Source of the DNA: Peptostreptococcaceae bacterium
Lineage (GTDB): Bacteria > Bacillota > Clostridia > Peptostreptococcales > Acidaminobacteraceae
DNA length: 35,310 nt
Reading direction: 5' to 3'
Assembly (NCBI GenBank): GCA_027064135.1
Contig: JAMOQG010000124.1
Location: forward strand, 1-35,310
A program made the translations under genes and the position numbers. The notes below the pieces were generated by a model. That model saw only the letters and a program-made list of their open reading frames with translations. It had not been told where the DNA came from and made no database searches. Of the stretch, positions 9,704 through 29,482 are shown one piece after another (the stretch's first letter is position 1; every line of letters starts with the position of its first letter).

Positions 9704-10996
9704 ATGAGACTTAAAATAATACTATTTCTATTAATCCTGTCTTTAATAATAACCGGGTGTACAATGAATACTAATAGCGAAGTTAAATCAGATGCAACTT
9801 TTAATGTGAATAAAACTACAGGTAATTACAATGAAGATATTATTAATTCAATTAATGAAACAGGTTATGATGTATTAAGTTATTTAAATAACGAAAATAA
9901 TGGTAAAAATATTTTATTTTCGCCGCTTAGTTTAACAACTGCCCTTTCAATGCTTGAAAATGGAGCTAAAGAGGAAACTAAAGAAGAAATTTTAAATTTT
10001 TTAAATTTTTTAAATTTTTTAAATTTTTTAAATTTAGGAACTGATGAAAATGTTAACGAAACATACAATCAATTAATTAATCATTTTTATAAAATCTCAG
10101 ATAATAAAAATGTAGAAGATAGAAAAACTACAGTTATTAATATGGCAAATTCATTCTGGTTTAGAAATTATGATTTAAAAATAAGAAAAGATTATATCAA
10201 TGAAATAAAATCATCATATGATGGTGATATATGCGCAGTTGATTTTGGTAATGAAAACACTAAGGACGCTATGAATGAATGGATCGAAAATAAAACAAAT
10301 GGTCTTTTAAAAAATACCATTAAGGAAACTGATTCATTAGATATTGCATATTTAATTAATACACTCTATTTTAAAGGCCAGTGGCTTAATGAATTTTATG
10401 AAAACGGTACTAAGAAAAATGATTTTTATGTTAATAAAGATTTAAAAATAAGAGTTGATATGATGAATAATGAAGAACAAAGAAATTACTTTGAATCAGA
10501 GAAAGTTCAAATTATAAAACTGGACTATTCAGATGCAGCAATGTATGTATTTCTTCCAAAAGGAAATATTAATGATTTTATAAATAATAATGATTCAATG
10601 AAATTAAATGAGTTAATAGAAAATATGGAATATAATAAAGTTGATCTTAGTTTTCCGAAATTTAAATTTACAAACAATAATGATCTTGTAGATCTATTAA
10701 AAGATTTAGGCATTAAATCAGCTTTTGATTATAAACTTGCAAATTTTGATTATATGATTGAATCAGAAAATGAAGTTGCAATTACTAAAGTTTTTCAAAA
10801 CACTACAATTGAAGTTGATGAAAAAGGAACCGAAGCAGCAGCTGTTACAGTAATAGCAACGAAAGAATCAGCAGCTCTAGTAATGAACGAACCAGTTATT
10901 ATGAACTGTAATAAACCTTTTCTTTTTATAATAAAAGATAAAGCTTCAAACACAGATCTTTTTTCAGGAATATTGAGAACTCCTAACGAAAAATGA
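9704..10996 (+). CDS. serpin (serine/cysteine protease inhibitor) lipoprotein
   Basis: Extracellular protease inhibitor of the serpin fold, 430 residues from ATG 9704. This start has AGGAG eight bases upstream, and the in-frame ATG at 9650 would bury the signal peptide. Residues 1-19 are a lipoprotein signal ending IITGC (lipidated Cys19). Serpin hallmarks: NILFSPLSLTTALSMLENGA near the N-terminus, NTLYFKGQWLNEF (strand region), the hinge EVDEKGTEAAAVT and the C-terminal NKPFLFIIKD and LFSGIL. The reactive-centre loop from the hinge to NKPF is about five residues longer than in alpha-1-antitrypsin, so P1 is uncertain. A 9-bp repeat encodes four NFL units after EETKEEIL. The gene shares a bidirectional terminator with the convergent MFS gene. 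Confidence 0.92.
   Translation: MRLKIILFLLILSLIITGCTMNTNSEVKSDATFNVNKTTGNYNEDIINSINETGYDVLSYLNNENNGKNILFSPLSLTTALSMLENGAKEETKEEILNFLNFLNFLNFLNLGTDENVNETYNQLINHFYKISDNKNVEDRKTTVINMANSFWFRNYDLKIRKDYINEIKSSYDGDICAVDFGNENTKDAMNEWIENKTNGLLKNTIKETDSLDIAYLINTLYFKGQWLNEFYENGTKKNDFYVNKDLKIRVDMMNNEEQRNYFESEKVQIIKLDYSDAAMYVFLPKGNINDFINNNDSMKLNELIENMEYNKVDLSFPKFKFTNNNDLVDLLKDLGIKSAFDYKLANFDYMIESENEVAITKVFQNTTIEVDEKGTEAAAVTVIATKESAALVMNEPVIMNCNKPFLFIIKDKASNTDLFSGILRTPNEK
9994..10036 (+). repeat. 9-bp tandem repeat inside the serpin gene
   Basis: Four perfect copies of AAATTTTTT (9994-10029) plus a partial fifth. The unit is a multiple of three, so copy-number change would add or remove Asn-Phe-Leu without breaking the frame. 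Confidence 0.9.
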
Positions 10997-17354: not shown

Positions 17355-18293
17355 TTAATTTTTACCTTTACCTGCATTATTTCCCTTGTTGTTGTCGTTG
17401 TTACTATTACTATTTCCTTTATTATTTTGATTATTATCTACATCTTTATTTTCGCTATTCCCTTTATCTTCGTTATTACCTTTTTTTTCAGTATTGCCTT
17501 TTCCCTCAGTATTTTTTTTATTATTTTCAGAATTATTATTTTCTTTTCCTTTTTGACTTTGAACAGGCATACCATTTTTATTATTACTATATACAGTAAC
17601 GTCTCTATTCTTTTTAATATCTTCTTTAACATCTAACAAATCAGAAACTTCTTTGTTTATTTTCTCTCTAATTGTTTTTCTTCCAATGCTTTCACCATTG
17701 TTCTTTGATTCTTCTACAGTTTCTTCATCAGATTTTACTACAGCCATTTCAAATTCTTTTTCACTATTTTCATATAAATTATTTAAAGATTCCTCAAATT
17801 TTTTTTCAGTTTGATTTTCTTCATCTTCATCTTCAAAATAATATGATATTAATACAAAATTTCTTGTTTCATTCAATATCCCTTTATCTTGAGCCGCTTC
17901 AATAATTTCATTAATTACTTCTTCAAAATTTTTCCCAATCCATTCATCTTTTATTATACTCTCTGCATCTTCATTTTTAGCTTCAACTTTAATTACATTC
18001 AAATTTTTATTGACTTCCATCTGAATACTTGGATTTATATCTACACTTACATAACCAAAAGCAATAGGTTCAATAGTTTGCGGCTGAATGAATACCATCA
18101 TAAAAAGTATAGCAGCAGCTATTACAATTTTACTAAAATGTTTTTGCTTCTTAACATAAAGATCCTCTTTAAAATAATAAATCGTACTTCCAAGAGATAA
18201 TCCTTCTTTAGCTTTAATTTTCTCATATTGCATATTATCATTTAATAAAATAGCATATTTACTATTTATTTCAATAACTTTACCTTTATTCAT
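17355..18293 (-). CDS. rsgI: RsgI-family anti-sigma-I factor
   Basis: Membrane-bound anti-sigma factor of 312 residues. Residues 1-50 are the cytoplasmic RsgI N-terminal domain (MNKGKVIEINSKYAILLND). One transmembrane helix spans about 54-70, and the extracellular juxtamembrane domain begins with FGYVSVDINPSIQMEVN. The Asn87-Pro88 in DINPSI is where RsgI relatives are reported to self-cleave. Residues about 150-245 are acidic and charged, and 250-312 are a low-complexity Asn/Lys/Gly/Ser tail instead of the carbohydrate-binding modules found in cellulolytic clostridia. I choose ATG 18293 because GGGGGTG lies six bases upstream inside sigI; a GTG nine bases earlier is in frame but badly placed. 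It overlaps the sigI end by 8 bp. Confidence 0.88.
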   Translation of the reverse strand: MNKGKVIEINSKYAILLNDNMQYEKIKAKEGLSLGSTIYYFKEDLYVKKQKHFSKIVIAAAILFMMVFIQPQTIEPIAFGYVSVDINPSIQMEVNKNLNVIKVEAKNEDAESIIKDEWIGKNFEEVINEIIEAAQDKGILNETRNFVLISYYFEDEDEENQTEKKFEESLNNLYENSEKEFEMAVVKSDEETVEESKNNGESIGRKTIREKINKEVSDLLDVKEDIKKNRDVTVYSNNKNGMPVQSQKGKENNNSENNKKNTEGKGNTEKKGNNEDKGNSENKDVDNNQNNKGNSNSNNDNNKGNNAGKGKN

Positions 18294-18966
18294 CACAGTC
18301 ACCCCCTATATATTCAATATAGTCTCTTAATTCATCAAATTCATAAATATATACTATTAACAAACTCAATATATATTGTTTTGAATATTTTAATACTCTC
18401 TTTGAAATTTTATATTGCTTTGAAATATTAGTTATAGGCAATTTCTTTTTCATTTTAATAAGATCCACTAAAAGCTTATTGCTTTTCATTTCATTAACAA
18501 GATAGAAACCTTTACATCTTGTATTTTTATGAACTGGGTTTTTATCTGCTAATATTTCAAAATCAATTCCATATGTTTTTAATACTTTTTTATATCTTTC
18601 AAGTTCATCATTTAAACTCACTTCATTTTCAACCTGACATTTATCTTCAATTAATTCAATAGTCTCATCATTATCAGATTCTATTTTATTTAATTTTCTT
18701 AAATAATCTTTTATTCTTGATTCAATTACTAATGAAGAAAAAGAAATAAAAGATCCTTTCTCTTCACAATATTTATTAATTGATTCATTAAATGCTAGTA
18801 ATGCAATAGATAATTCTTCATCATTTTCAACTTCAATATATTTACCTAATACTTTTGAAGCTGTTTTAATTATAAACGGAGTATATTTTTCAATTATTTC
18901 ATTTCTTAATAAATTATTTTTTTCATTTTGAATTTTAGTTATTAATCTATTGAGTTCTTCATTCAT
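18286..18966 (-). CDS. sigI: RNA polymerase sigma-I factor
   Basis: Alternative sigma factor of 226 residues, typical of SigI proteins in Bacilli and Clostridia. Region 2 is visible (NEIIEKYTPFIIKTASKVLG, ELSIALLAFNESINKY, then FISFSSLVIESRIKDYLRK). The C-terminal SigI-specific domain holds NPVHKNTRCKGF and a helix-turn-helix-like KLPITNISKQYKISKRVLKY. It has a perfect AAGGAGGT Shine-Dalgarno site, next to a 24-bp palindrome. It is translationally coupled to rsgI, its membrane regulator. SigI normally autoregulates, but no typical sigma-I promoter (ACCCCC-like -35) is recognised in the 52-bp gap upstream, so the pair may be transcribed from the gene at 20341. Confidence 0.9.
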   Translation of the reverse strand: MNEELNRLITKIQNEKNNLLRNEIIEKYTPFIIKTASKVLGKYIEVENDEELSIALLAFNESINKYCEEKGSFISFSSLVIESRIKDYLRKLNKIESDNDETIELIEDKCQVENEVSLNDELERYKKVLKTYGIDFEILADKNPVHKNTRCKGFYLVNEMKSNKLLVDLIKMKKKLPITNISKQYKISKRVLKYSKQYILSLLIVYIYEFDELRDYIEYIGGDCDE

Positions 18967-20433: not shown

Positions 20434-20463
20434 TCAAAAAAAAATAAAGAATTATTAATTCTT
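20434..20463 (-). terminator. intrinsic terminator of the aro operon
   Basis: Minus strand AAGAAT-TAATA-ATTCTT hairpin (20463 down to 20447), followed by TTATTTTTTTTTG. It overlaps the aroE stop codon. The stem is AT-only and therefore weak, but the T-run is long. Confidence 0.6.
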
Positions 20464-21207
20464 CATTTTTTCATATATTTTTTCAACCTCTTCATTATCA
20501 ATTTTACATTCTTGCCAAATTTCTTCTGCTTTTATAGCTTGACCTATTAACATATATAATCCATTGGTTGTTTTTAAATTTAATTTTTTTGAAATAGATA
20601 TAAACTTTGTTTCAAAAGGATTATATATTAAATCTATTGCAACTTTAAATTTCTTAAGTATTTCACTGCCTACTGGTGATTTATCAATATTTGGATACAT
20701 CCCTACAGGTGTAGTATTAATAATTATATCACCAGAAACTTTATTTAATTCTTCATATGAAATAATATTTTCTTCTTTAATTGTTCTTGAAACAAAATTA
20801 ATTAATTTAGCATTATTATCTTTTAAATATTTAAATACTGCTTTTGATGCACCACCTGTTCCTAAAATATAAACTGTCTTATTTTCAACATTAATATTGT
20901 TGATTTCAAGCATTTTTTTAAAACCATAATAATCAGTATTATATCCAACTTCTTTATATATTGTGTTTACAGCGCCAATATTTTTTGCAACTTTATCCAC
21001 TTTTTTTAAATGTTTAAACATTTCTGTTTTATACGGAATAGTTACATTAAGACCATCATATTCTTTAAGATATTTCATTAAATTTTCTTTTTTGGTTTCA
21101 ATCAAATCATATGAAGCTTCAATCTTTAAATATTTAAAAATATCATTATGAATTTCAGGTGATTTTGAATGCGACAATTTTTCACCAAGCAAACCATACT
21201 TTTTCAT
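20455..21207 (-). CDS. aroE: shikimate dehydrogenase
   Basis: Reduces 3-dehydroshikimate to shikimate with NADPH. 250 residues, slightly short for the family (about 270). Motifs: substrate site GEKLSHSKSPEIHNDIF (Ser-x-Ser), catalytic Lys in LNVTIPYKTEM, AVNTIY followed by NTDYYGF, the nucleotide loop GTGGASKAVF and NTTPVGMYPN. The start overlaps the pheA stop (TAATG), with GGAGG inside the end of pheA. Last gene of the aro operon. Confidence 0.95.
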   Translation of the reverse strand: MKKYGLLGEKLSHSKSPEIHNDIFKYLKIEASYDLIETKKENLMKYLKEYDGLNVTIPYKTEMFKHLKKVDKVAKNIGAVNTIYKEVGYNTDYYGFKKMLEINNINVENKTVYILGTGGASKAVFKYLKDNNAKLINFVSRTIKEENIISYEELNKVSGDIIINTTPVGMYPNIDKSPVGSEILKKFKVAIDLIYNPFETKFISISKKLNLKTTNGLYMLIGQAIKAEEIWQECKIDNEEVEKIYEKMKN

Positions 21208-22316
21208 TAAAATCCTCCACAGTTTCTTAAATAATTCCCATATATTTTAAATGACGTTGAACTTTTTTTAATCTCTTCTATAATATTTTTTACTTTTAAT
21301 TCTTCGACATTTCCTTCAAGATCAACATAAAAATAGTACTCAAAAGGCGATTCAATAATTGGTCTTGACTCAAGTTTATACATATTTATATCGTTTTTAT
21401 CAAATATTCCTAAAACACTATAAAGTGCTCCAGGTTTATGATAAACAGAAAAACCTAAAGTTATTTTATCAGCATTTGTATTATCACATATTTCTTTTGA
21501 AATTATAATAAATCTTGTTATATTTTTAGTGTTATGATTAATATATTCTTTTAAAACATCAAGATTATAAATTTTTGCTGCTTCCATGCTTGCAATAGCT
21601 GCAATATCATTTCTTTCTGAAACGCTAACCATATATGCACTTTCAGAAGTACTTTCACTATTTATAAGTTCCCAATTATATTTTTTTAAAAACTCATTTG
21701 ATTGATCAAGAGCTTGCGGATGAGAATAAACCGTTTTAATATCTTCAAGCTTAACCCCTTTTTTTACAAGTAGATTATGATTTATTTCAATTGTTGTTTC
21801 ACCAACAATATTTAAATTATATTTCTTAAGTAAATCATATACTAAAATAATGCTTCCTGTAGAAGTGTTTTCTATAGGTAAAACCCCATATTTCAATTTA
21901 TTTGTTGAAACACCCTCAAATATTTCTTCAAAAGTATTAGATGAAATCATATCTCCATTTTCAAAATATTTTTTAGCAGCTAAATAACTATAAGAGCCTT
22001 CTTTTCCAAGATGTCCAACCGCTTCTGCTTTTATAGTTTCGCTTTCACTATTTTTTAAAGTATATTGATATCCTTTTGATAAATTCATCATTTCATAGAA
22101 AAACTTACCTGTAATTTCTTTTAAATATTCATCATTTATTTTATCAACATGTTTTTTAATTATTTCCTTTTCTCTTAGTGCATCATAAATCGGAAGATCC
22201 TTCTCTTTTTTCACTTCAATAATTTCATTTACATATTCCATTCTTTTTAAAAAAAGATCAACTAACTTAATATCAATTTTATCTATGTTTTTTCTTAAAT
22301 CATTTAATCTATTCAT
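21207..22316 (-). CDS. pheA: bifunctional chorismate mutase / prephenate dehydratase (P-protein)
   Basis: Converts chorismate to prephenate and then to phenylpyruvate, the committed Phe branch. Residues 1-80 are an AroQ-type chorismate mutase (MNRLNDLRKNIDKID). Residues about 100-280 are the dehydratase (GHLGKEGSYSYLAAKKYF, VLPIENTSTGSI, NITRFIII with the catalytic TRF). The C-terminus is an ACT domain with GALYSVL and ESRP, the residues that bind Phe for feedback inhibition. I choose ATG 22316 over an in-frame GTG at 22328; it overlaps the aroC end by 8 bp. The fused form is typical of proteobacteria and some clostridia, whereas Bacillus keeps the dehydratase separate. Confidence 0.93.
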   Translation of the reverse strand: MNRLNDLRKNIDKIDIKLVDLFLKRMEYVNEIIEVKKEKDLPIYDALREKEIIKKHVDKINDEYLKEITGKFFYEMMNLSKGYQYTLKNSESETIKAEAVGHLGKEGSYSYLAAKKYFENGDMISSNTFEEIFEGVSTNKLKYGVLPIENTSTGSIILVYDLLKKYNLNIVGETTIEINHNLLVKKGVKLEDIKTVYSHPQALDQSNEFLKKYNWELINSESTSESAYMVSVSERNDIAAIASMEAAKIYNLDVLKEYINHNTKNITRFIIISKEICDNTNADKITLGFSVYHKPGALYSVLGIFDKNDINMYKLESRPIIESPFEYYFYVDLEGNVEELKVKNIIEEIKKSSTSFKIYGNYLRNCGGF

Positions 22317-23406
22317 AAAAAATACCACTTTCTAATAAAAAATCAAGTGCCACTATTGCTGCTACAGCTTCCACTACTACAAGTGCTCTTGGTACTATAC
22401 ACGGATCATGCCTACCATCAATTTCCAATTCAACATTTTCCTTTGTTTCTAAATTTATAGTCCTTTGATTTATTGAAATTGAAGGAGTTGGTTTAAATGC
22501 TACTTTAAATATTACAGGCATTGAACTACTAAGACCTCCTAAAATACCACCATTATTATTTGAATAAGTTTTAATATTCTTAAATTCATCATAATAATAT
22601 TCATCATTAGCATCTGAGCCTGTCATTTCAGATATTTCAAATCCTTTTCCAAATTCAACACCTTTTAATCCTGGTATTGAAAAAAGCATATGAGAAAGTT
22701 TACTTTCAAATGAATCAAAAATTGGTTCACCAAGCCCTATTGGAAGATTTATTATTGCAGCTTCAACAATTCCGCCGACTGAATCTCCTATTTTTTTATA
22801 TTTTAAAATTTCATTTTCCATTCTCATTGAAATTTCTTTATTTATTGTTGGTATTTTTTCATTTTTTAATTTCTCTAAAATTTCTGCTTTAATTTCAAGT
22901 TCATTAAAATTATCATCTTTAATATTTTTTATTGAAGAAATATGACTTCCAATAAAAATATTTCTTTCTTTAAGAATTTGTTTTGCAATAGCTCCTGCAA
23001 ATACAATAGGCGCAGTTAAACGACCTGAAAAAGTTCCACCACCACGATAATCATTAAATCCATTAAATTTTATTTTCGCCGGAAAATCTGCATGACTTGG
23101 CCTCATATTATTAATTAATTTTGAATAATCTTTTGATTTTTTATTTTCATTATTTATAATTATTGAAATAGGAGAACCTGTAGTTTTATCATTAAAATAT
23201 CCACTTAATATTTTAGCATCATCCATTTCATTTCTCGAAGTTGAAATATCACTTTTACCAGGTCTTCTTCTATCCATTTCTAATTTTATATTTTCAAAAT
23301 CTATCGTTAGTCCTGCTGGAACACCTTCTATAATAGCACCAATTGAATCAGAATGCGATTCACCAAATACTGTTAATTTAAATTTATTTCCAATAGTATT
23401 AGACAT
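22309..23406 (-). CDS. aroC: chorismate synthase
   Basis: Makes chorismate from EPSP using reduced FMN, the last common step of the shikimate pathway. 365 residues, the usual length. Motifs: FGESHSDSIGAIIEGVPAG at the N-terminus, RRRPGKSDISTSRNE, RGGGTFSGRLTAPIVFAGA and DGRHDPCIVPRALVVVEA near the C-terminus. The start lies inside the last codons of aroA (8-bp overlap) with GGAGGTGA just upstream. Confidence 0.97.
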   Translation of the reverse strand: MSNTIGNKFKLTVFGESHSDSIGAIIEGVPAGLTIDFENIKLEMDRRRPGKSDISTSRNEMDDAKILSGYFNDKTTGSPISIIINNENKKSKDYSKLINNMRPSHADFPAKIKFNGFNDYRGGGTFSGRLTAPIVFAGAIAKQILKERNIFIGSHISSIKNIKDDNFNELEIKAEILEKLKNEKIPTINKEISMRMENEILKYKKIGDSVGGIVEAAIINLPIGLGEPIFDSFESKLSHMLFSIPGLKGVEFGKGFEISEMTGSDANDEYYYDEFKNIKTYSNNNGGILGGLSSSMPVIFKVAFKPTPSISINQRTINLETKENVELEIDGRHDPCIVPRALVVVEAVAAIVALDFLLESGIFYE

Positions 23407-24679
23407 TTATTTCACCTCCAAGTTTAATAAAATCTTTATAAAAATCAGGATATGATTTATTTATTGCATTTTCTCCACTTAAAATAATATTTCCATTTAC
23501 TCTTGTTGCAAAAATAGCTAAAGCCATAGCTATTCTATGATCATTAAAACTACTCACTTCACCTTTTAAACCTTCATTAATCGGATATATTTCCAGTCCA
23601 TCATCAAATTCAATTATTTTACCACCAAGAACATTAATTTCACTTGAAATTGCTTTTAATCTATCAGATTCTTTTATTCTTAATCTTTTTGCATTTATTA
23701 TTTTACATTTACCTTTTGAAAAACTTGCTAATACCGTTAATATCGGTACAAGATCTGGACAATCATTAACATCGATTTCAATGTTTTTAAGATCATTATT
23801 CTTTTTTAATATTAAAAAATCATCCTTGAATTCATATTTTGCGCCCATATCTTTTATAATTTTTAAAATAGCTATATCACCTTGAATTGAATTTTCATTA
23901 AGGCCTTTAATTAATACATCATTTCCTATTAAAGATGCAGTTATCCAAAATGCAGCTTGTGAATAATCTCCTTCAACTTTATAATTTCTTTTAATGTATT
24001 TTTGATTTCCTTTTATTTTAAATTTTTTATATTCATTGTTTTTATTTTCAATTTCAATATTGAACTTTTTTAAAACATCAATAGTTAAATCAACATATGA
24101 TTTTGATTCAAGTTTTTTATTTATTATAATTTGAGAATCACCATTTAATAACGGAAGCACATACATAAGTCCTGTAATAAATTGAGATGAAATATCTCCA
24201 TCAATTTCATATATTCCTGATTTTAAATTTCCTATAATTTTCAGCGGAAGTTTTCCTGAATTATTTTTATAATTGATTTTTTGCTTATCAAATATTTTAT
24301 AATATGGGTCAAGTGGTCTTTCAATTAATTTATTTCTTCCTGTGAAAGTCACTTCTTCATTTAAAAGAGTAAAAAAAGGAATTAAAAATCTTAAAGTTGA
24401 TCCAGATTCAAAACAGTCTATAGTTCTATTTATTAGTTTTAATTTCTTTTTTCCATTTATTATTAATTTATATCTTTCACCTTTTATTTCTTCTATTTCC
24501 ACTCCAAAACTTCTCATTGCATTAATTGTTGCTTTTATATCATCTGAAAGTATAATATTTTCAATAATACTTTCACCTTCACAAAGAGAGGCTGCTATAA
24601 TTGCACGATGACTTAAACTTTTAGAGGGAGGTATATTTACTGTTCCTTTTAATTTATTAGATTTTATTTCAATGCTCAT
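23399..24679 (-). CDS. aroA: 5-enolpyruvylshikimate-3-phosphate synthase
   Basis: Joins phosphoenolpyruvate to shikimate-3-phosphate. 426 residues. Motifs: PPSKSLSHRAIIAASLCEG, ERPLDPYYKIF, DISSQFITGLMYVLPLL, RIKESDRLKAISSE and FNDHRIAMALAIF. The PEP/glyphosate loop reads CFESGSTLRFL where class I enzymes have LGNAGTAMRPL; the Gly that controls glyphosate binding (E. coli G96) aligns by eye with Ser. It starts one base after the aroB stop, with GAGGTA inside the aroB end. Confidence 0.96.
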   Translation of the reverse strand: MSIEIKSNKLKGTVNIPPSKSLSHRAIIAASLCEGESIIENIILSDDIKATINAMRSFGVEIEEIKGERYKLIINGKKKLKLINRTIDCFESGSTLRFLIPFFTLLNEEVTFTGRNKLIERPLDPYYKIFDKQKINYKNNSGKLPLKIIGNLKSGIYEIDGDISSQFITGLMYVLPLLNGDSQIIINKKLESKSYVDLTIDVLKKFNIEIENKNNEYKKFKIKGNQKYIKRNYKVEGDYSQAAFWITASLIGNDVLIKGLNENSIQGDIAILKIIKDMGAKYEFKDDFLILKKNNDLKNIEIDVNDCPDLVPILTVLASFSKGKCKIINAKRLRIKESDRLKAISSEINVLGGKIIEFDDGLEIYPINEGLKGEVSSFNDHRIAMALAIFATRVNGNIILSGENAINKSYPDFYKDFIKLGGEINV

Positions 24680-24680
24680 T

Positions 24681-25709
24681 TTATACCTCTATCATATCTT
24701 TAAATTCTTTTAACGTATATTTTTCAATATGCGCATTTCCTATTTTATCAACTACTACAATGTTTATAATATCATTCAATATTTTTTTATCATTTTTTAT
24801 ATATTCATATAACTTTTTAATATCATAATCATAATTATTTACGATATCGTATTTTATTAAAAGTGACTTTAATTTTTCACTTATTTCTTTTTTCCCAAAT
24901 AATTCTAAAATATGTATCATTCCAAAAGAAATAGCTTCACCATGAGAAATAAAATCTTCATCAAAACTTTTTTCTATTGCATGGCCTATAGTATGACCAA
25001 AATTAAGAATCATTCTTAAACCTTTATCAAACTCATCAATTTCTACGATTTCCTTTTTTATATTTAAAGAAATAAAAAGAATTTCTTCAATGTTTTCATA
25101 TAGTTCATTAAATGATTTATATTTATTTAATAAATCAAATAAATTTTTATCTTTTATAATTGCATGTTTTATTAATTCTCCCATTCCCGATTTTATTTCT
25201 CTTTTAGGAAGAGTTATTAAAAATTCTGGATCTATTATTACTTCTAAAGGATGATAAAAACTTCCTATTAAATTTTTACCATATAACGAATTAATTGCAA
25301 CTTTTCCACCTATTGAACTATCAACTTGAGATAAAAGAGTAGTTGGTATTTGGATATATCTTACACCTCTTAAAATTGTTGAAGCAATAAAACCTGAAAG
25401 ATCTCCAACAACTCCTCCACCTAAAGACACAATAATATCTTCTCTATTAAAATTCATTTTCAAAAGTTTATTTATAACTGATTCATAAGTATTTATGGTT
25501 TTACTTTTTTCTCCCGGTTCAATTATCACTACTTCGAAATTCAAATTAAGAATATCCTCTTTATAAAGTTCATATATATTTTTATCAGTAATAATAACGC
25601 ACTTTTGATAAGAATATGATTTAATTATCTTATTTAAATTCTTAAAAATTCCTTTTTCAATAATAATTTGATATTCACTTTTTTGACTTTTCAAAATTAA
25701 TTTTTTCAT
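24681..25709 (-). CDS. aroB: 3-dehydroquinate synthase
   Basis: Cyclises DAHP to 3-dehydroquinate; uses NAD+ and a divalent metal. 342 residues. Motifs: nucleotide region GGGVVGDLSGFIAS, IPTTLLSQVDSSIGGKVAIN, GKNLIGSFYHP, GMGELIKHAII (metal-site Glu), and NFGHTIGHAIE with metal-binding His. Start ATG overlaps the tyrA stop (ATGA). Confidence 0.97.
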   Translation of the reverse strand: MKKLILKSQKSEYQIIIEKGIFKNLNKIIKSYSYQKCVIITDKNIYELYKEDILNLNFEVVIIEPGEKSKTINTYESVINKLLKMNFNREDIIVSLGGGVVGDLSGFIASTILRGVRYIQIPTTLLSQVDSSIGGKVAINSLYGKNLIGSFYHPLEVIIDPEFLITLPKREIKSGMGELIKHAIIKDKNLFDLLNKYKSFNELYENIEEILFISLNIKKEIVEIDEFDKGLRMILNFGHTIGHAIEKSFDEDFISHGEAISFGMIHILELFGKKEISEKLKSLLIKYDIVNNYDYDIKKLYEYIKNDKKILNDIINIVVVDKIGNAHIEKYTLKEFKDMIEV

Positions 25710-26542
25710 GAATTTAAATATTCCTCTCTTTTTACTCTTGTATTCAATAACATTTTTTCAAGCGAATCTTTATCACTATTTTCAAGCATATTTGTTATTT
25801 CATTTATTTCTTTTCCAATATCATTTAAAAAATTTTTTAAATAGTCTTTATTATTTATAAATAACTCAGACCATAACTTTTCATTTATTAAACTTATTCT
25901 TGTCATTTCATCAAAACTATTACCAACATAGTTTTTAGTATCTTCAAATGTATTTATTCTCGTAAGTATTGAAGCTATAATATGCGGTACTTGACTTGTT
26001 AAAGCTATCATTTTATCATGCGTTTTTTCATCAACTTCAATTGCTTTTGCACCAAGCTTTTTAATAATTTTTTTAAAATTTTCAAGTCTTTCATCAATTA
26101 TTTTTTCATTATTTACCAAAAGATAATTTGCACCTTCAAATAAATCAGTGATTGCACTATCAAATCCACCTTTTTCTCTTCCAGCCATTGGATGTCCTGG
26201 TATGAAAAGCTTGTCATTTGACAACACACCTTTCATCTCATTGTAAATATTATTTTTTACTCCAGCTACGTCAGTAATAAACGCATTTTTCTTAAAAATC
26301 ATTCTACTATTTTTAATAAAATTTATTGCATCTTCAGGATATAGACAAACTATTACAATATCTGCAACATTTAAACTTTCTTCTTTCCCTATATTAATTA
26401 TACCCTTTTTTGAAGCTTTTTTTAATGTTTCTTTATCAATATCTACTCCAAATACATTTTTAAAACCTAATTCTTTTAATTTTAATGCAATTGAACCTCC
26501 AATTAGTCCTAACCCTACAACAGCAATTTTAAAGTCTTCCAT
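25706..26542 (-). CDS. tyrA: prephenate dehydrogenase
   Basis: Oxidatively decarboxylates prephenate to 4-hydroxyphenylpyruvate, the Tyr branch. Rossmann motif VVGLGLIGGSIALKL is at residues 7-21, and the substrate-site pattern PGHPMAGREKGGFDSA is mid-protein. The 278-residue protein has no C-terminal ACT domain, so Tyr control may fall mainly on DAHP synthase and on the operon leader. I choose ATG 26542, one base after the aroF stop, with AGGTATAAT upstream; an in-frame ATG at 26578 lies inside aroF. Confidence 0.93.
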   Translation of the reverse strand: MEDFKIAVVGLGLIGGSIALKLKELGFKNVFGVDIDKETLKKASKKGIINIGKEESLNVADIVIVCLYPEDAINFIKNSRMIFKKNAFITDVAGVKNNIYNEMKGVLSNDKLFIPGHPMAGREKGGFDSAITDLFEGANYLLVNNEKIIDERLENFKKIIKKLGAKAIEVDEKTHDKMIALTSQVPHIIASILTRINTFEDTKNYVGNSFDEMTRISLINEKLWSELFINNKDYLKNFLNDIGKEINEITNMLENSDKDSLEKMLLNTRVKREEYLNS

Positions 26543-26543
26543 A

Positions 26544-27563
26544 TTATACCTGCATCTGTTTATTACTAACATTTGCAATAACTTCTAATTCTCTCATCAT
26601 TTCATCAAATTTTCTAGGTAATAATGATTGCGGTCCATCTGACATTGCTTCTTCAGGTTTATTATGAACTTCTACCATTATTCCATCAGCTCCAACTACC
26701 ACTGCAGCTTTCGCCATTTCTTTAACCATCCACCATTTTCCGGTAGCGTGAGATGGATCAATTATTATTGGTAAATGGCTTAATTTTTTAATAGCTAAAA
26801 TTGACGAAAGATCAAGAGTATTTCTTGTATAATCTTCAAATGTTCTTATTCCTCTTTCACATAAAATAACATTTTCATTTCCTTGCGCCATAATATATTC
26901 AGCTGCCATTAAAAACTCTTTAATAGTAGAAGCCATTCCTCTTTTAAGCATTATTGGTTTATTTGTTTTACCAACAGCTTTTAATAAATCAAAATTTTGC
27001 ATATTTCTTGCACCAATCTGAAGCACATCTACATCATGTTTAATGAATAAATCGAGTAAATCTGCGCTCATTAATTCAGTTACAATAGGCATGCCGGTAA
27101 CTTTTTTTGCTTCATTTAAAAGTTTTAATCCTTCTTCGCCCATTCCTTGAAAACTATACGGGGATGTTCTAGGTTTAAATGCTCCACCTCTTAGAAAATC
27201 AGCACCACTTTTTACTATTTCTTTCGATATGTTCATTAATTGTTCCCTACTTTCAACTGCACATGGCCCTGCAATTACGCTAAGCTTATTTCCACCTATT
27301 TGTTTATTACCTATTTTAATTATTGAATCTTCATTTTTATAAATTCTATTCGCTTTTTTAAACGCTTCTTTAATTTCTATAATATTTTCAACATTTCTAT
27401 TCTTTCTTAGTTTTTCAACATCAATTTTACTAAGATTTCCTGTTATTCCAAGTTCAATTGATTTGTTCTGTCTTATTTCTTGAATTTCTAAATTTGATTC
27501 CATACTCATTATCTCATCTTTTACTAAATTTCTACTATTTACATCTTTTAATCTAATTAACAT
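26544..27563 (-). CDS. aroF: 3-deoxy-7-phosphoheptulonate (DAHP) synthase
   Basis: First step of the shikimate pathway, condensing PEP with erythrose-4-phosphate. 339 residues. Residues 1-70 form the ferredoxin-like regulatory extension (LIRLKDVNSRNLVKDEI) found in Thermotoga-type class I-beta enzymes, where it mediates Tyr/Phe inhibition. The catalytic barrel shows VIAGPCAVESREQL, GADFLRGGAFKPRTSPYSFQ, LKRGMAST and PIIIDPSHATGK. First structural gene of the operon; GGAGG lies seven bases upstream. It is preceded by the tandem leader attenuators at 27584-27951. The symbol is chosen by function; naming of this subclass varies. Confidence 0.95.
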   Translation of the reverse strand: MLIRLKDVNSRNLVKDEIMSMESNLEIQEIRQNKSIELGITGNLSKIDVEKLRKNRNVENIIEIKEAFKKANRIYKNEDSIIKIGNKQIGGNKLSVIAGPCAVESREQLMNISKEIVKSGADFLRGGAFKPRTSPYSFQGMGEEGLKLLNEAKKVTGMPIVTELMSADLLDLFIKHDVDVLQIGARNMQNFDLLKAVGKTNKPIMLKRGMASTIKEFLMAAEYIMAQGNENVILCERGIRTFEDYTRNTLDLSSILAIKKLSHLPIIIDPSHATGKWWMVKEMAKAAVVVGADGIMVEVHNKPEEAMSDGPQSLLPRKFDEMMRELEVIANVSNKQMQV

Positions 27564-27583
27564 ATAATACCTCCAATTTTATA

Positions 27584-27611
27584 TAAAAAAAAGCCCATCC
27601 AAGGATGAGCT
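27584..27611 (-). terminator. attenuator terminator T2 (aro leader)
   Basis: Minus strand AGCTCATCC-TT-GGATGGGCT (arms 27603-27611 and 27592-27600, one G-U pair) followed by a run of seven T. It lies between the stop of leader peptide 2 and the aroF Shine-Dalgarno site, so it must be bypassed for operon expression. Confidence 0.9.
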
Positions 27612-27631
27612 AAGCCATATTAATAATCCTT
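27601..27631 (-). promoter_or_regulatory. antiterminator pairing AT2 (aro leader)
   Basis: AAGGAT (27631 down to 27626), one base after the leader 2 UGA, is complementary to ATCCTT (27606 down to 27601), which contains the tip of the 5' arm and loop of T2. The two structures are mutually exclusive. A ribosome sitting on the stop codon would cover AAGGAT and let T2 form. Confidence 0.65.
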
Positions 27632-27632
27632 A

Positions 27633-27746
27633 TCAAATAATTTTATAAAATTTTATAAACAAAAATGCTAGAGCAAAAAAACTCCAGAAAAAGAAATAAA
27701 AGCTATAATAATATTTTTCATTTAATAAATCATTTAAAATTTCCAT
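27633..27746 (-). CDS. aro operon leader peptide 2 (Tyr/Phe-rich, 37 aa)
   Basis: Short frame from ATG 27746 to TGA 27633, with AAAGGA and GAGTGAT upstream. The peptide runs MEILNDLLNEKYYYSFYFFF and continues WSFFALAFLF then IKFYKII. It holds 5 Tyr, 9 Phe and 1 Trp in 37 residues, dense between positions 12 and 34. Its stop is adjacent to the antiterminator sequence and is followed by terminator T2. This is the layout of a ribosome-stalling attenuation peptide sensing charged tRNA-Tyr and tRNA-Phe. A small membrane peptide is the alternative, but position and composition favour a leader. Confidence 0.85.
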   Translation of the reverse strand: MEILNDLLNEKYYYSFYFFFWSFFALAFLFIKFYKII

Positions 27747-27768
27747 ATCACTCAGATCCTTTCTTCTT

Positions 27769-27801
27769 AAAACACAAAAGTCTACCTTTTCAGATAGACT
27801 T
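27769..27801 (-). terminator. attenuator terminator T1 (aro leader)
   Basis: Minus strand AAGTCTATC-TGAAAA-GGTAGACTT (arms 27793-27801 and 27778-27786, 9 bp with one G-U) followed by TTGTGTTTT. It lies downstream of leader peptide 1 and upstream of leader peptide 2. Confidence 0.8.
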
Positions 27802-27846
27802 AATCAACATGGTTGTTTAATTTTTATTCTTATTCTTATTCTATCT
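27792..27846 (-). promoter_or_regulatory. antiterminator pairing AT1 (aro leader)
   Basis: AGATAGA (27846 down to 27840), six bases after the leader 1 stop codon, is perfectly complementary to TCTATCT (27798 down to 27792) in the 5' arm of T1. The spacer contains AATAAG repeats and a small CAAC/GTTG hairpin. The geometry parallels AT2. Confidence 0.6.
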
Positions 27847-27852
27847 ATAAAT

Positions 27853-27951
27853 TTATATTTGATTATATTCTAAATTACCTACGCTAAAGTAATAGCCTAA
27901 GTTAAAAAAGAAATAAAAATATGAATTTGTAATTGAAATAAGATTTTTCAT
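27853..27951 (-). CDS. aro operon leader peptide 1 (Tyr/Phe-rich, 32 aa)
   Basis: Short frame from ATG 27951 to TAA 27853, with AAAGGTGAT seven bases upstream. The peptide is MKNLISITNSYFYFFFNLGY followed by YFSVGNLEYNQI: 5 Tyr and 5 Phe, clustered at positions 11-22. It starts about 27 nt after the predicted transcription start of the aro promoter and is followed by its own antiterminator/terminator pair. Together with leader peptide 2 it forms a serial attenuator that should read aminoacylation of tRNA-Tyr and tRNA-Phe. Confidence 0.85.
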   Translation of the reverse strand: MKNLISITNSYFYFFFNLGYYFSVGNLEYNQI

Positions 27952-27984
27952 ATAAATCACCTTTGTTTTATTATTATTCATTTG

Positions 27985-28013
27985 AGTATATAGATTGCTT
28001 ATCTGCTTGTCAA
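27985..28013 (-). promoter_or_regulatory. aro operon promoter (near-consensus sigma-A)
   Basis: Minus strand TTGACA (28008-28013), a 17-nt spacer and TATACT (27985-27990). Transcription should begin near 27978, giving a leader of about 415 nt before aroF. It lies just downstream of the trkH stop. Confidence 0.9.
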
Positions 28014-28039
28014 GAACTTTCAGAATATTTAGTGAAATA

Positions 28040-29482
28040 CTACTCTCTCCAAAAACTTGGTGTTAACAAAGCAATTACAGTAAATAATTCAAGTCTTCCA
28101 AGCAACATAAAAAAAGAAAGGAGAATTTTACTGAAATCAGAAAATCCACTATAAGTATGTGTCGGCCCAACAAATCCAAAACCAGGTCCAACATTTCCTA
28201 ATGTTGCTGCAACAGCACTAGCTGCTCCTTCAAGTCCAATCCCTTCATAAGAAATTATTACAGTCCCTATTGCAAATATAAGAATATATAACATAAAGAA
28301 ACCTGAAATATTAAGCAATGAACCCTCTGAAACCGGTTTATCATCAAATTTCACTACAACTACAGCTCTAGGGTGTAAAACCATTACTAATTCTTTTTTT
28401 ACTAATTTTAATAATGCAAGTATTCTTACAACTTTTATCGAGCCACCTGTTGAACCTGCACAACCACCAATAAACATAAGTAAAAATAAAATACTTTTTG
28501 AGAAAGTAGTCCATTGATCAAAATCAAATGTCGAATAACCTGTAGTCGTAATTATTGAACTTACTTGAAATAATGAATGTTTAAATGAATCAAACCAATT
28601 ATGATATAAATTAATGTTCATATTTACAGTAATTAAAGCAACTGCTACAAAAATAATTCCAAGATAAAATTTCAACTCGCTATTTCTTAGTACTTCTTTC
28701 CATTTTCCTTTAAAAAGTAAATAATAAAGCGAAAAATTAGCTCCAGACATAATCATAAATATTGAAATCACAATAAATATATATGAACTATTAAATCCAC
28801 CAACACTAGCATTTCTTGTAGAAAATCCACCTGTACCTAATGTTCCAAAAGTATGCACAGCTGATTCAAAAGGTGTCATTCCACCAAGCATTAATAAAAC
28901 AAATTCTAATAATGATATTATTATATAAGTAGTATATAAAATTTTAGCAGTATCTTTTATTTTTGGTACTATTTTATCAGTTATCGGCCCCGGACTTTCT
29001 GCTTTAAATATTTGAAAGCCTCCTGATCCAATCATCGGTAATATTGCTACAGCAACTACTAAAATTCCCATGCCACCTATCCAATGAGTAAAAGAACGCC
29101 AAAATAAAATTCCCATTGGAAGCACTTCAATATCGTCTATAATTGTTGCTCCAGTTGTTGTAAAACCTGAAACCGTTTCAAAGAAAGCATCTACATAAGA
29201 TGGAATACTTCCAGATATGTAAAAGGGAAGCGCTCCAAATAATGAAACGACAATCCATCCAAGCGCAACAATTGCAACGCCTTCTTTTGTATTAATTTTT
29301 CTTTTAATTATTTTCAATCTTGAAAGTATAAATCCAATTAATGCCGTTAATACTATACTTATTGCAAATGCTTTCATATCATCCTGATGAGTTACCATTG
29401 AAATAATCAATGGTGCAATCATACTAAAAGCAATAATAATTAAAACGTAACCCAATATTTTTAAAATTATCTTATAATTCAT
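28040..29482 (-). CDS. trkH: Trk/Ktr potassium uptake protein, membrane pore subunit
   Basis: K+ channel-like transporter subunit, 480 residues. Four pore-loop segments with the family selectivity-filter pattern are visible: SGFTTTGATI, TLGTGGFST, ITTTGYSTFDF and LGNVGPGFG. Transmembrane pairs flank each filter. It works with the RCK-type regulator encoded just upstream; the start overlaps the trkA stop by 4 bp. No strong terminator is seen between its stop and the aro promoter 27 bp away, so some readthrough into the aro leader is possible. Confidence 0.93.
   Translation of the reverse strand: MNYKIILKILGYVLIIIAFSMIAPLIISMVTHQDDMKAFAISIVLTALIGFILSRLKIIKRKINTKEGVAIVALGWIVVSLFGALPFYISGSIPSYVDAFFETVSGFTTTGATIIDDIEVLPMGILFWRSFTHWIGGMGILVVAVAILPMIGSGGFQIFKAESPGPITDKIVPKIKDTAKILYTTYIIISLLEFVLLMLGGMTPFESAVHTFGTLGTGGFSTRNASVGGFNSSYIFIVISIFMIMSGANFSLYYLLFKGKWKEVLRNSELKFYLGIIFVAVALITVNMNINLYHNWFDSFKHSLFQVSSIITTTGYSTFDFDQWTTFSKSILFLLMFIGGCAGSTGGSIKVVRILALLKLVKKELVMVLHPRAVVVVKFDDKPVSEGSLLNISGFFMLYILIFAIGTVIISYEGIGLEGAASAVAATLGNVGPGFGFVGPTHTYSGFSDFSKILLSFFMLLGRLELFTVIALLTPSFWRE

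Follow-up and report, generated by a model that had tools for sequence, protein, structure and literature searches.

How is an entire shikimate, tyrosine and phenylalanine operon governed when two small Tyr/Phe-rich reading frames, each followed by an intrinsic terminator, lie between its promoter and its first structural gene? The question is raised by the minus strand of a 35,310-nucleotide stretch of DNA from a Peptostreptococcaceae bacterium (the window, meaning this whole stretch), for which an initial annotation had proposed two leader-peptide attenuators in series ahead of the aro, tyrA and pheA genes. That anatomy is present and is kept in a second genome of the genus (G001), and the region very probably acts as two ribosome-mediated transcription attenuators, one behind the other, in a single transcript extending into aroF-tyrA-aroB-aroA-aroC-pheA-aroE.

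In the proposed mechanism, a ribosome would translate the short Tyr/Phe-rich ORF in each leader. With an ample supply of charged tRNA-Tyr and tRNA-Phe, this ribosome would arrive at the stop codon and cover the adjacent segment, upon which the terminator would fold and transcription would stop. When these charged tRNAs are scarce, the ribosome would stall within the aromatic run, leaving the segment free; it would then pair with the terminator's 5' arm, allowing readthrough. Because both gates must be passed, readthrough would be approximately the product of the two. We infer the switching, its signal and this multiplicative effect, and a steeper response would be expected from two gates.

The leader region and its conservation in the genus

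The anatomy of the locus is established feature by feature (Table 1). Along the minus strand the order is promoter, peptide 1, terminator T1, peptide 2, terminator T2, aroF and six more shikimate, Tyr and Phe genes, and the regulatory codons of the leaders (Tyr and Phe) agree with the pathway of the operon downstream. Among the operon genes, tyrA and aroE are identified by matches below the curated cut-offs and the remaining genes by matches above them.

Table 1. Coordinates of the leader features and operon genes in the window.
Feature	Position	Strand	Description
Promoter TTGACA-17-TATACT	27985..28013	(-)	11/12 consensus bases
Leader 1 ribosome-binding site AAAGGTGA	27957..27964	(-)	Shine-Dalgarno-like, from sequence
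Leader peptide 1, MKNLISITNSYFYFFFNLGYYFSVGNLEYNQI	27853..27951	(-)	32 codons, 5 Phe and 5 Tyr; conserved leader family
Putative antiterminator segment 1 (AT1; ATAGATAGAA)	27839..27848	(-)	Pairs with TCTATCTG of T1; 8 bp, -8.4 kcal/mol
Intrinsic terminator T1	27778..27801	(-)	10-bp hairpin, -11.4 kcal/mol, then T-rich run
Leader 2 ribosome-binding site AAAGGA	27757..27762	(-)	Shine-Dalgarno-like, from sequence
Leader peptide 2, MEILNDLLNEKYYYSFYFFFWSFFALAFLFIKFYKII	27633..27746	(-)	37 codons; 9 Phe, 5 Tyr, 1 Trp
Putative antiterminator segment 2 (AT2; TAAGGAT)	27626..27632	(-)	Pairs with ATCCTT of T2; 6 bp, -5.5 kcal/mol
Intrinsic terminator T2	27592..27611	(-)	8-bp hairpin, -9.6 kcal/mol, then run of T
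aroF, DAHP synthase, first structural gene	26544..27563	(-)	NF006421, TIGR01361, above cut-off
tyrA, aroB, aroA, aroC, pheA (chorismate mutase/prephenate dehydratase), aroE	20455..26578	(-)	Rest of operon

The promoter had been described as single and near-consensus, and it is the sole minus-strand site at the scan threshold up to aroF. No second minus-strand promoter-like site (at least 9 of 12 bases) is listed by the scan between it and aroF, so both leaders are probably carried on one transcript. The two proposed mini-genes, each with a Shine-Dalgarno-like site, Tyr and Phe codons, a pairable segment after the stop codon and a terminator, have all been located before aroF, and the RNA 3' ends proposed at 27769 and 27584 coincide with the T runs of the terminators. 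A two-strand scan of positions 27000-28300 returns three terminator-like sites against 0.3 expected, the third lying inside ORF 2. Within this same ORF, at 27687-27668, a 7-bp hairpin (-7.7 kcal/mol) is followed by T-rich sequence and is unchanged in G001; it is possibly a pause site.

The window contains 272 ORFs of 20-60 amino acids, 26 of which consist of at least 28% Phe plus Tyr, and the one of these 26 with a good Shine-Dalgarno site is peptide 2. Peptide 1 fell short of the 28% cut because the scan began its frame at an upstream ATG. Elsewhere in the window, a perfect 9-bp repeat in 5.1 copies (9990-10035) encodes an L-N-F array within a serpin gene (Pfam Serpin), and at 17355-18966 an RsgI-like anti-sigma factor (Pfam) adjoins a protein without a Pfam match, which is apparently its sigma factor, SigI.

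Conservation in the genus is established by comparing the window genome with one other genome, G001. ORF 1 is identical at 98/99 nucleotides and ORF 2 at 113/114 (together 211/213), T1 is identical at 32/32 nucleotides, and T2 with its T run is identical at 28/28 aligned positions with four gap columns within the T run, the hairpin itself being the same. The spacers show 82-91% identity with a few gaps, and aroF is identical at 934/1020 nucleotides (91.6%; 86 differences). Since the identities of the ORFs exceed that of aroF, the leaders are more conserved than the gene behind them, synonymous positions included. Only two substitutions occur in the ORFs, one changing F to Y, which is still a regulatory codon, and the other K to R. 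Both promoter hexamers and their 17-nt spacing are also retained in G001, where, unlike in the window, the unit is preceded by an unrelated upstream gene. An alignment upstream of aroF had been suggested as a check on conservation of the peptides, and it finds both ORFs and both hairpins kept in G001.

The leader family and matching of tails with terminator arms

Upstream of DAHP synthase genes in relatives, an aromatic-rich small ORF is found at 29 of 30 loci and a terminator at 30 of 30, these being the best 30 loci from a DAHP synthase search that matched 51 of 61 genomes. The small ORFs share a core of approximately F-Y-F-x-W-G-F-Y-F-S-A-G-Y-F-x-x-K-K. In an order-wide sample of 297 genomes, 99 match a profile built from 23 of the 30 loci, without the peptides of the window (E <=0.01), as do 11 of 398 in a phylum-wide sample (E 0.001), with the window genome counted each time. 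Peptide 1 scores 28.4 bits against the profile from other genera, a score reached by 0 of 1000 shuffles, and carries S-V-G where the family has S-A-G. The existence of this leader family is thereby established. With leader 1 belonging to a family present in a third of the genomes sampled from the order, and with Tyr/Phe leaders standing before many clostridial DAHP synthase genes, the earlier remark that peptide attenuation is unusual for Firmicutes is not borne out.

All of the best 30 loci have a profile match and a terminator before DAHP synthase, a result that is partly circular because 23 of them supplied the profile. By a profile-free criterion, with the window excluded, a leader ORF is present at 26 of 29 loci and all 26 have a terminator; the antisense strand gives 2 of 29 and 0 terminators. 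Applied to named DAHP synthase loci (the best 80 of 593 stretches), the profile-free criterion finds a leader-like ORF at 37 of 80 and a terminator in 27 of these cases, the controls for the same best 80 giving 2/80 on the antisense strand and 1/78 downstream, in both cases with 0 terminators. Bittarella massiliensis and other GC-rich loci retain the aromatic run together with G-A-G, so AT richness is not its cause; at such loci the terminator search found none.

The gene behind the leader was assigned for 148 family hits by comparison with the seven proteins of this operon only, which gives AroF for 103, PheA for 9, AroE for 2, AroA for 2 (both at the broken locus L065 described below) and no assignment for 32. 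Of the 148 hits, 135 have a terminator and 10 have E-values above 1e-5. A Pfam search of seven downstream genes identifies two SSF transporters and one each of a LarA-like protein, a shikimate kinase, a shikimate dehydrogenase, a protein of bile-acid-symporter type and a protein with no match. The loci at which a leader and terminator precede these SSF-type transporter, LarA-like, shikimate kinase or dehydrogenase and bile-acid-symporter-type genes (L072, L074, L081, L073, L080 and L227) are candidate members of a Tyr/Phe regulon. At two other loci, L070 and L067, two neighbouring DAHP synthase genes each stand behind their own family leader, which is not an arrangement of leaders in series; behind the second L070 leader, no sequence satisfied the terminator criteria. 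Searches of Pfam and NCBIfam with four leader peptides, namely the two of the window and two from relatives, gave nothing at E <=1.

If the tail of a leader and the arm of its terminator form an antiterminator, then the two must match within a locus, and such matching is established across the family. Among 81 deduplicated units, a tail pairs with its own terminator arm 2.53 kcal/mol better than when swapped (row- and column-centred values; permutation sd 0.25), and 0 of 10,000 permutations are as good. For 20 of the 81 arms, against about 4 expected, the own tail is among the best-ranked 5%; its median rank is 0.15, so many single units are not significant. The G001 leader 1 ranks first for its own arm, the window leader 1 having been dropped as a near copy, and both units of the tandem in G152, a genome from the same taxonomic family as the window, rank poorly (0.55 and 0.72). 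Against shuffled tails, 50 of 130 units fall at or below 5/100, with about 8 expected. Covarying pairs of tail and arm include CTAATGAG with CTCATTAG, TTCTAAGA with TCTTAGA and ACTTAAAGA with TCTTTAAGT. AT1 taken alone is not significant, as 30 of 100 shuffled tails pair equally well. In 70 of 81 units the best-pairing segment does not extend beyond the end of the stop codon, stopping a median of 22 nt short of it, and a segment within the leader ORF would be covered by the moving ribosome. In the window, both pairing segments sit just after the stop codon.

The predicted switch was modelled by folding the RNA only up to the terminator loop, with the ribosome placed either at the last aromatic codon (stalled) or at the stop codon. 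Across 74 units, mean engagement of the terminator arm is 0.63 stalled and 0.24 at the stop codon, the stalled value being the larger by more than 0.1 in 66 units and the smaller in 1; shuffled tails give 0.42 and 0.29 (Wilcoxon p 1e-11). The corresponding values in the window are 0.65 and 0.39 for leader 1 and 0.70 and 0.30 for leader 2, and the stalled-minus-stop difference is matched by 11 of 100 shuffles for leader 1 and by 1 of 100 for leader 2. Two calculations speak against the switch. In a two-sided model, where RNA on either side of the ribosome is free to pair, neither window leader switches (0.51 v 0.52 and 0.65 v 0.65); the family mean in this model is 0.49 v 0.37, stalling raising the value in 36 of 74 units and lowering it in 6. 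When complete hairpins are folded at equilibrium, the terminator is favoured for both window leaders wherever the ribosome stands, and among 13 other units only L011, L026 and L181 show a dip; as a test of switching this form of folding is uninformative. Given the family-wide pairing and the mixed results in the window, support for the switch is good at the level of the family and less direct in the window itself.

The second leader, the S-A-G segment and rival explanations

The two leaders differ in their relatives. Peptide 2 does not fit the profile of the leader family (-0.3 and -2.1 bits, equalled by 42 and 67 of 1000 shuffles), and used as a query against 297 genomes of the order it matches two, which belong to this genus, with no relatives found outside it. 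No similarity between peptides 1 and 2 is detected beyond composition: a score as high is reached by 562 of 2000 shuffles of codons and by 726 of 2000 shuffles of residues. A simple duplication is consequently unsupported as the origin of peptide 2, and the word 'duplicated' in the initial annotation is not borne out. An alignment of the leader 1 and leader 2 modules scores 35 against a shuffled maximum of 23, a value that is not relied on because the shuffles are mononucleotide. Two weak DNA matches within the same genome (C142 and C64) were rejected, as by eye they appear to belong to other coding regions. Leader 2 may have originated as a copy that diverged, or have been gained independently; presumably leader 1, with as many Tyr as Phe codons, is the ancestral gate and leader 2, with more Phe and one Trp, is an addition.

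This difference bears on an explanation in which only leader 1 is a Tyr/Phe attenuator and leader 2 holds a small translated ORF in front of a partial terminator that works constitutively, or mainly couples translation into aroF. The family membership of leader 1, the restriction of peptide 2 to the genus and the mere 6 bp of the AT2 helix are what such an explanation would predict. Set against them are the conservation of peptide 2 within the genus, which is like that of peptide 1 (113/114 nucleotides), its 15 aromatic residues among 37, its own Shine-Dalgarno site and terminator, and the fact that leader 2 has the stronger of the two stalled-minus-stop differences. This single-gate explanation, which is compatible with the arrest-peptide explanation considered below, is judged unlikely, and two attenuators in series remain the preferred reading.

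Tandem units were surveyed among 138 leader ORFs at 131 loci, a number that includes alternative starts of the same ORF and repeated entries for one place. Five genomes of three lineages have, within about 500-600 nt, a second Tyr/Phe ORF that carries its own terminator: the genus of the window (G000 and G001), G152, and G241 with G194, which belong to one genus. The tandem copies are 93% identical in G241, 91% in G194 and 68% in G152, where the similarity of the two peptides is reached by 0 of 2000 shuffles. Judged by these identities, the tandems of G241/G194 and G152 are duplications, recent and old, and putative doubled switches have at least two separate origins in lineages other than the genus of the window. 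At L065 (G194:C69, approximately 1086-1250), the DAHP synthase gene after the tandem leaders is shortened and runs into EPSP synthase sequence, a join that reflects either a deletion or a misassembly.

A further feature of the family is the segment that follows the aromatic run. The searched core is present in 124 family leaders (11 without it having been left out); in these the segment has Ser in 117, Ala in 116 and Gly in 101, and S-A-G recurs in named loci of Clostridia and Lachnospiraceae. The core serine codon is AGC in 117 of 117 cases, although the downstream genes use AGC for 17% of their serines, and the glycine codon of the core region is GGC in 73% against 17%. The invariance of AGC places part of the S-A-G constraint in the RNA, and both the amino acid and the codon are constrained there. 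In a fit to a small hairpin, UAGC[GCNR]GYUA, the four positions pair in 80, 72, 63 and 55 of 80 sequences; some shifted registers score highly too, given how little the bases vary, and formation of a small RNA hairpin by the S-A-G region is offered as a suggestion only.

The same segment is the argument for regarding the leaders as arrest peptides, in which the nascent chain would sense free Phe or Tyr or the state of the ribosome and not the supply of tRNA codon by codon, much as the TnaC arrest peptide senses Trp. A non-aromatic S-A-G conserved family-wide after the run would suit such a peptide. Peptide 1, however, has only S-V-G and peptide 2 has no S-A-G, the constant AGC codon (background 0.17) points in part to a constraint on RNA, and to our knowledge arrest peptides that sense free metabolites do not need 10-15 cognate codons. 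Arrest peptides are accordingly an improbable explanation, and sensing of tRNA supply by two attenuators is preferred. A wider hypothesis, possible but distinctly tentative, is that the clostridial Tyr/Phe leader family reads more than codon supply. In this hypothesis S-A-G, with its serine always encoded by AGC, would form a second layer, either as a small hairpin in the RNA or as a pause of the nascent chain, and stacking two gates in series would be a recurrent evolutionary way to sharpen shikimate feedback; here the first gate would respond to Tyr/Phe and the second, of separate origin, would be weighted towards Phe.

Binding of the leader by a protein or a trans-acting RNA, with the ORFs incidental to a very AT-rich region in which Phe/Tyr-rich ORFs lacking a Shine-Dalgarno site are common (26 of 272 short ORFs), is highly improbable in view of the Shine-Dalgarno sites and conserved reading frames at both leaders and of the recurrence of the leaders before DAHP synthase in distant, GC-rich genomes such as Bittarella massiliensis, with controls near zero (2/80 and 1/78). 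T-box control was likewise rejected: at Rfam gathering thresholds, the window and 19 related loci have no covariance-model match to a T-box or to any other Rfam element except an rRNA fragment.

Relation to known systems

If the proposed reading is true, leader-peptide attenuation, which is usually taught as enteric, is a common control of shikimate entry in Clostridia. The series attenuators of three lineages would then provide a natural test of whether gates with the same signal multiply repression and steepen the response, and the family offers more than 100 leaders for testing codon-level against peptide-level sensing. No published account of the S-A-G leader family, or of peptide attenuators with the same signal in series, was recognised in the open-licence PMC literature, which does not prove absence from print.

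The E. coli pheA operon is under ribosome-mediated transcription attenuation. The E. coli trp operon is described in the same terms in PMC3641672. As in these two systems, a short ORF with runs of codons for the amino acids of the pathway, a competing antiterminator and an intrinsic terminator precede a biosynthetic operon; unlike them, the locus described here has two complete units in series and belongs to Firmicutes. The best-pairing segment also ends inside the leader ORF in most members of the family (70/81), and not after the stop codon.

Among Firmicutes, leader peptides with regulatory codons, for which attenuation has been proposed, are described in the passages cited for the ilv-leu operon of S. 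aureus (PMC5794164) and for his leaders in Bacilli and C. difficile (PMC2965389, PMC4833913). These differ from the present leaders in having branched-chain or His codons and, in those passages, are described as single units. A review of C. difficile riboswitches places T-boxes before the Phe- and Tyr-tRNA synthetase genes, and the terms 'leader peptide', 'aroF' and 'aromatic' do not occur in its main text. The uORFC-13-1 motif before aroF is reported in the section cited with 24 representatives from Acholeplasma and environmental sequences (PMC8632094). This motif likewise combines a uORF containing one or more Phe codons with an intrinsic terminator and DAHP synthase; unlike the window it is, as presented there, a single unit, and the peptides at two Acholeplasma-type loci that were examined lack the W-G...S-A-G core.

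Series arrangements have precedents of other kinds. According to the section cited, the mgtCBR leader of Salmonella has tandem attenuators, with ORFs answering to ATP and to proline, that act additively through hairpins unlike intrinsic terminators (PMC3641672). The supposition that no tandem arrangement had been described must therefore be narrowed, since mgtCBR has tandem attenuators, albeit with different signals and without intrinsic terminators. Both cases place two short ORFs on one leader RNA, each within an attenuator. The window was nevertheless not assigned to an mgtCBR-type tandem class, because both of its ORFs are Tyr/Phe-rich and both are followed by intrinsic terminators. The metE leader of B. 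clausii, as outlined in the same source, carries tandem SAM and B12 riboswitches, each with a predicted intrinsic terminator (PMC3641672). It resembles the aroF leader in having two regulatory units in series, each with its own intrinsic terminator, and differs in that its riboswitches sense metabolites directly and respond to two different signals.
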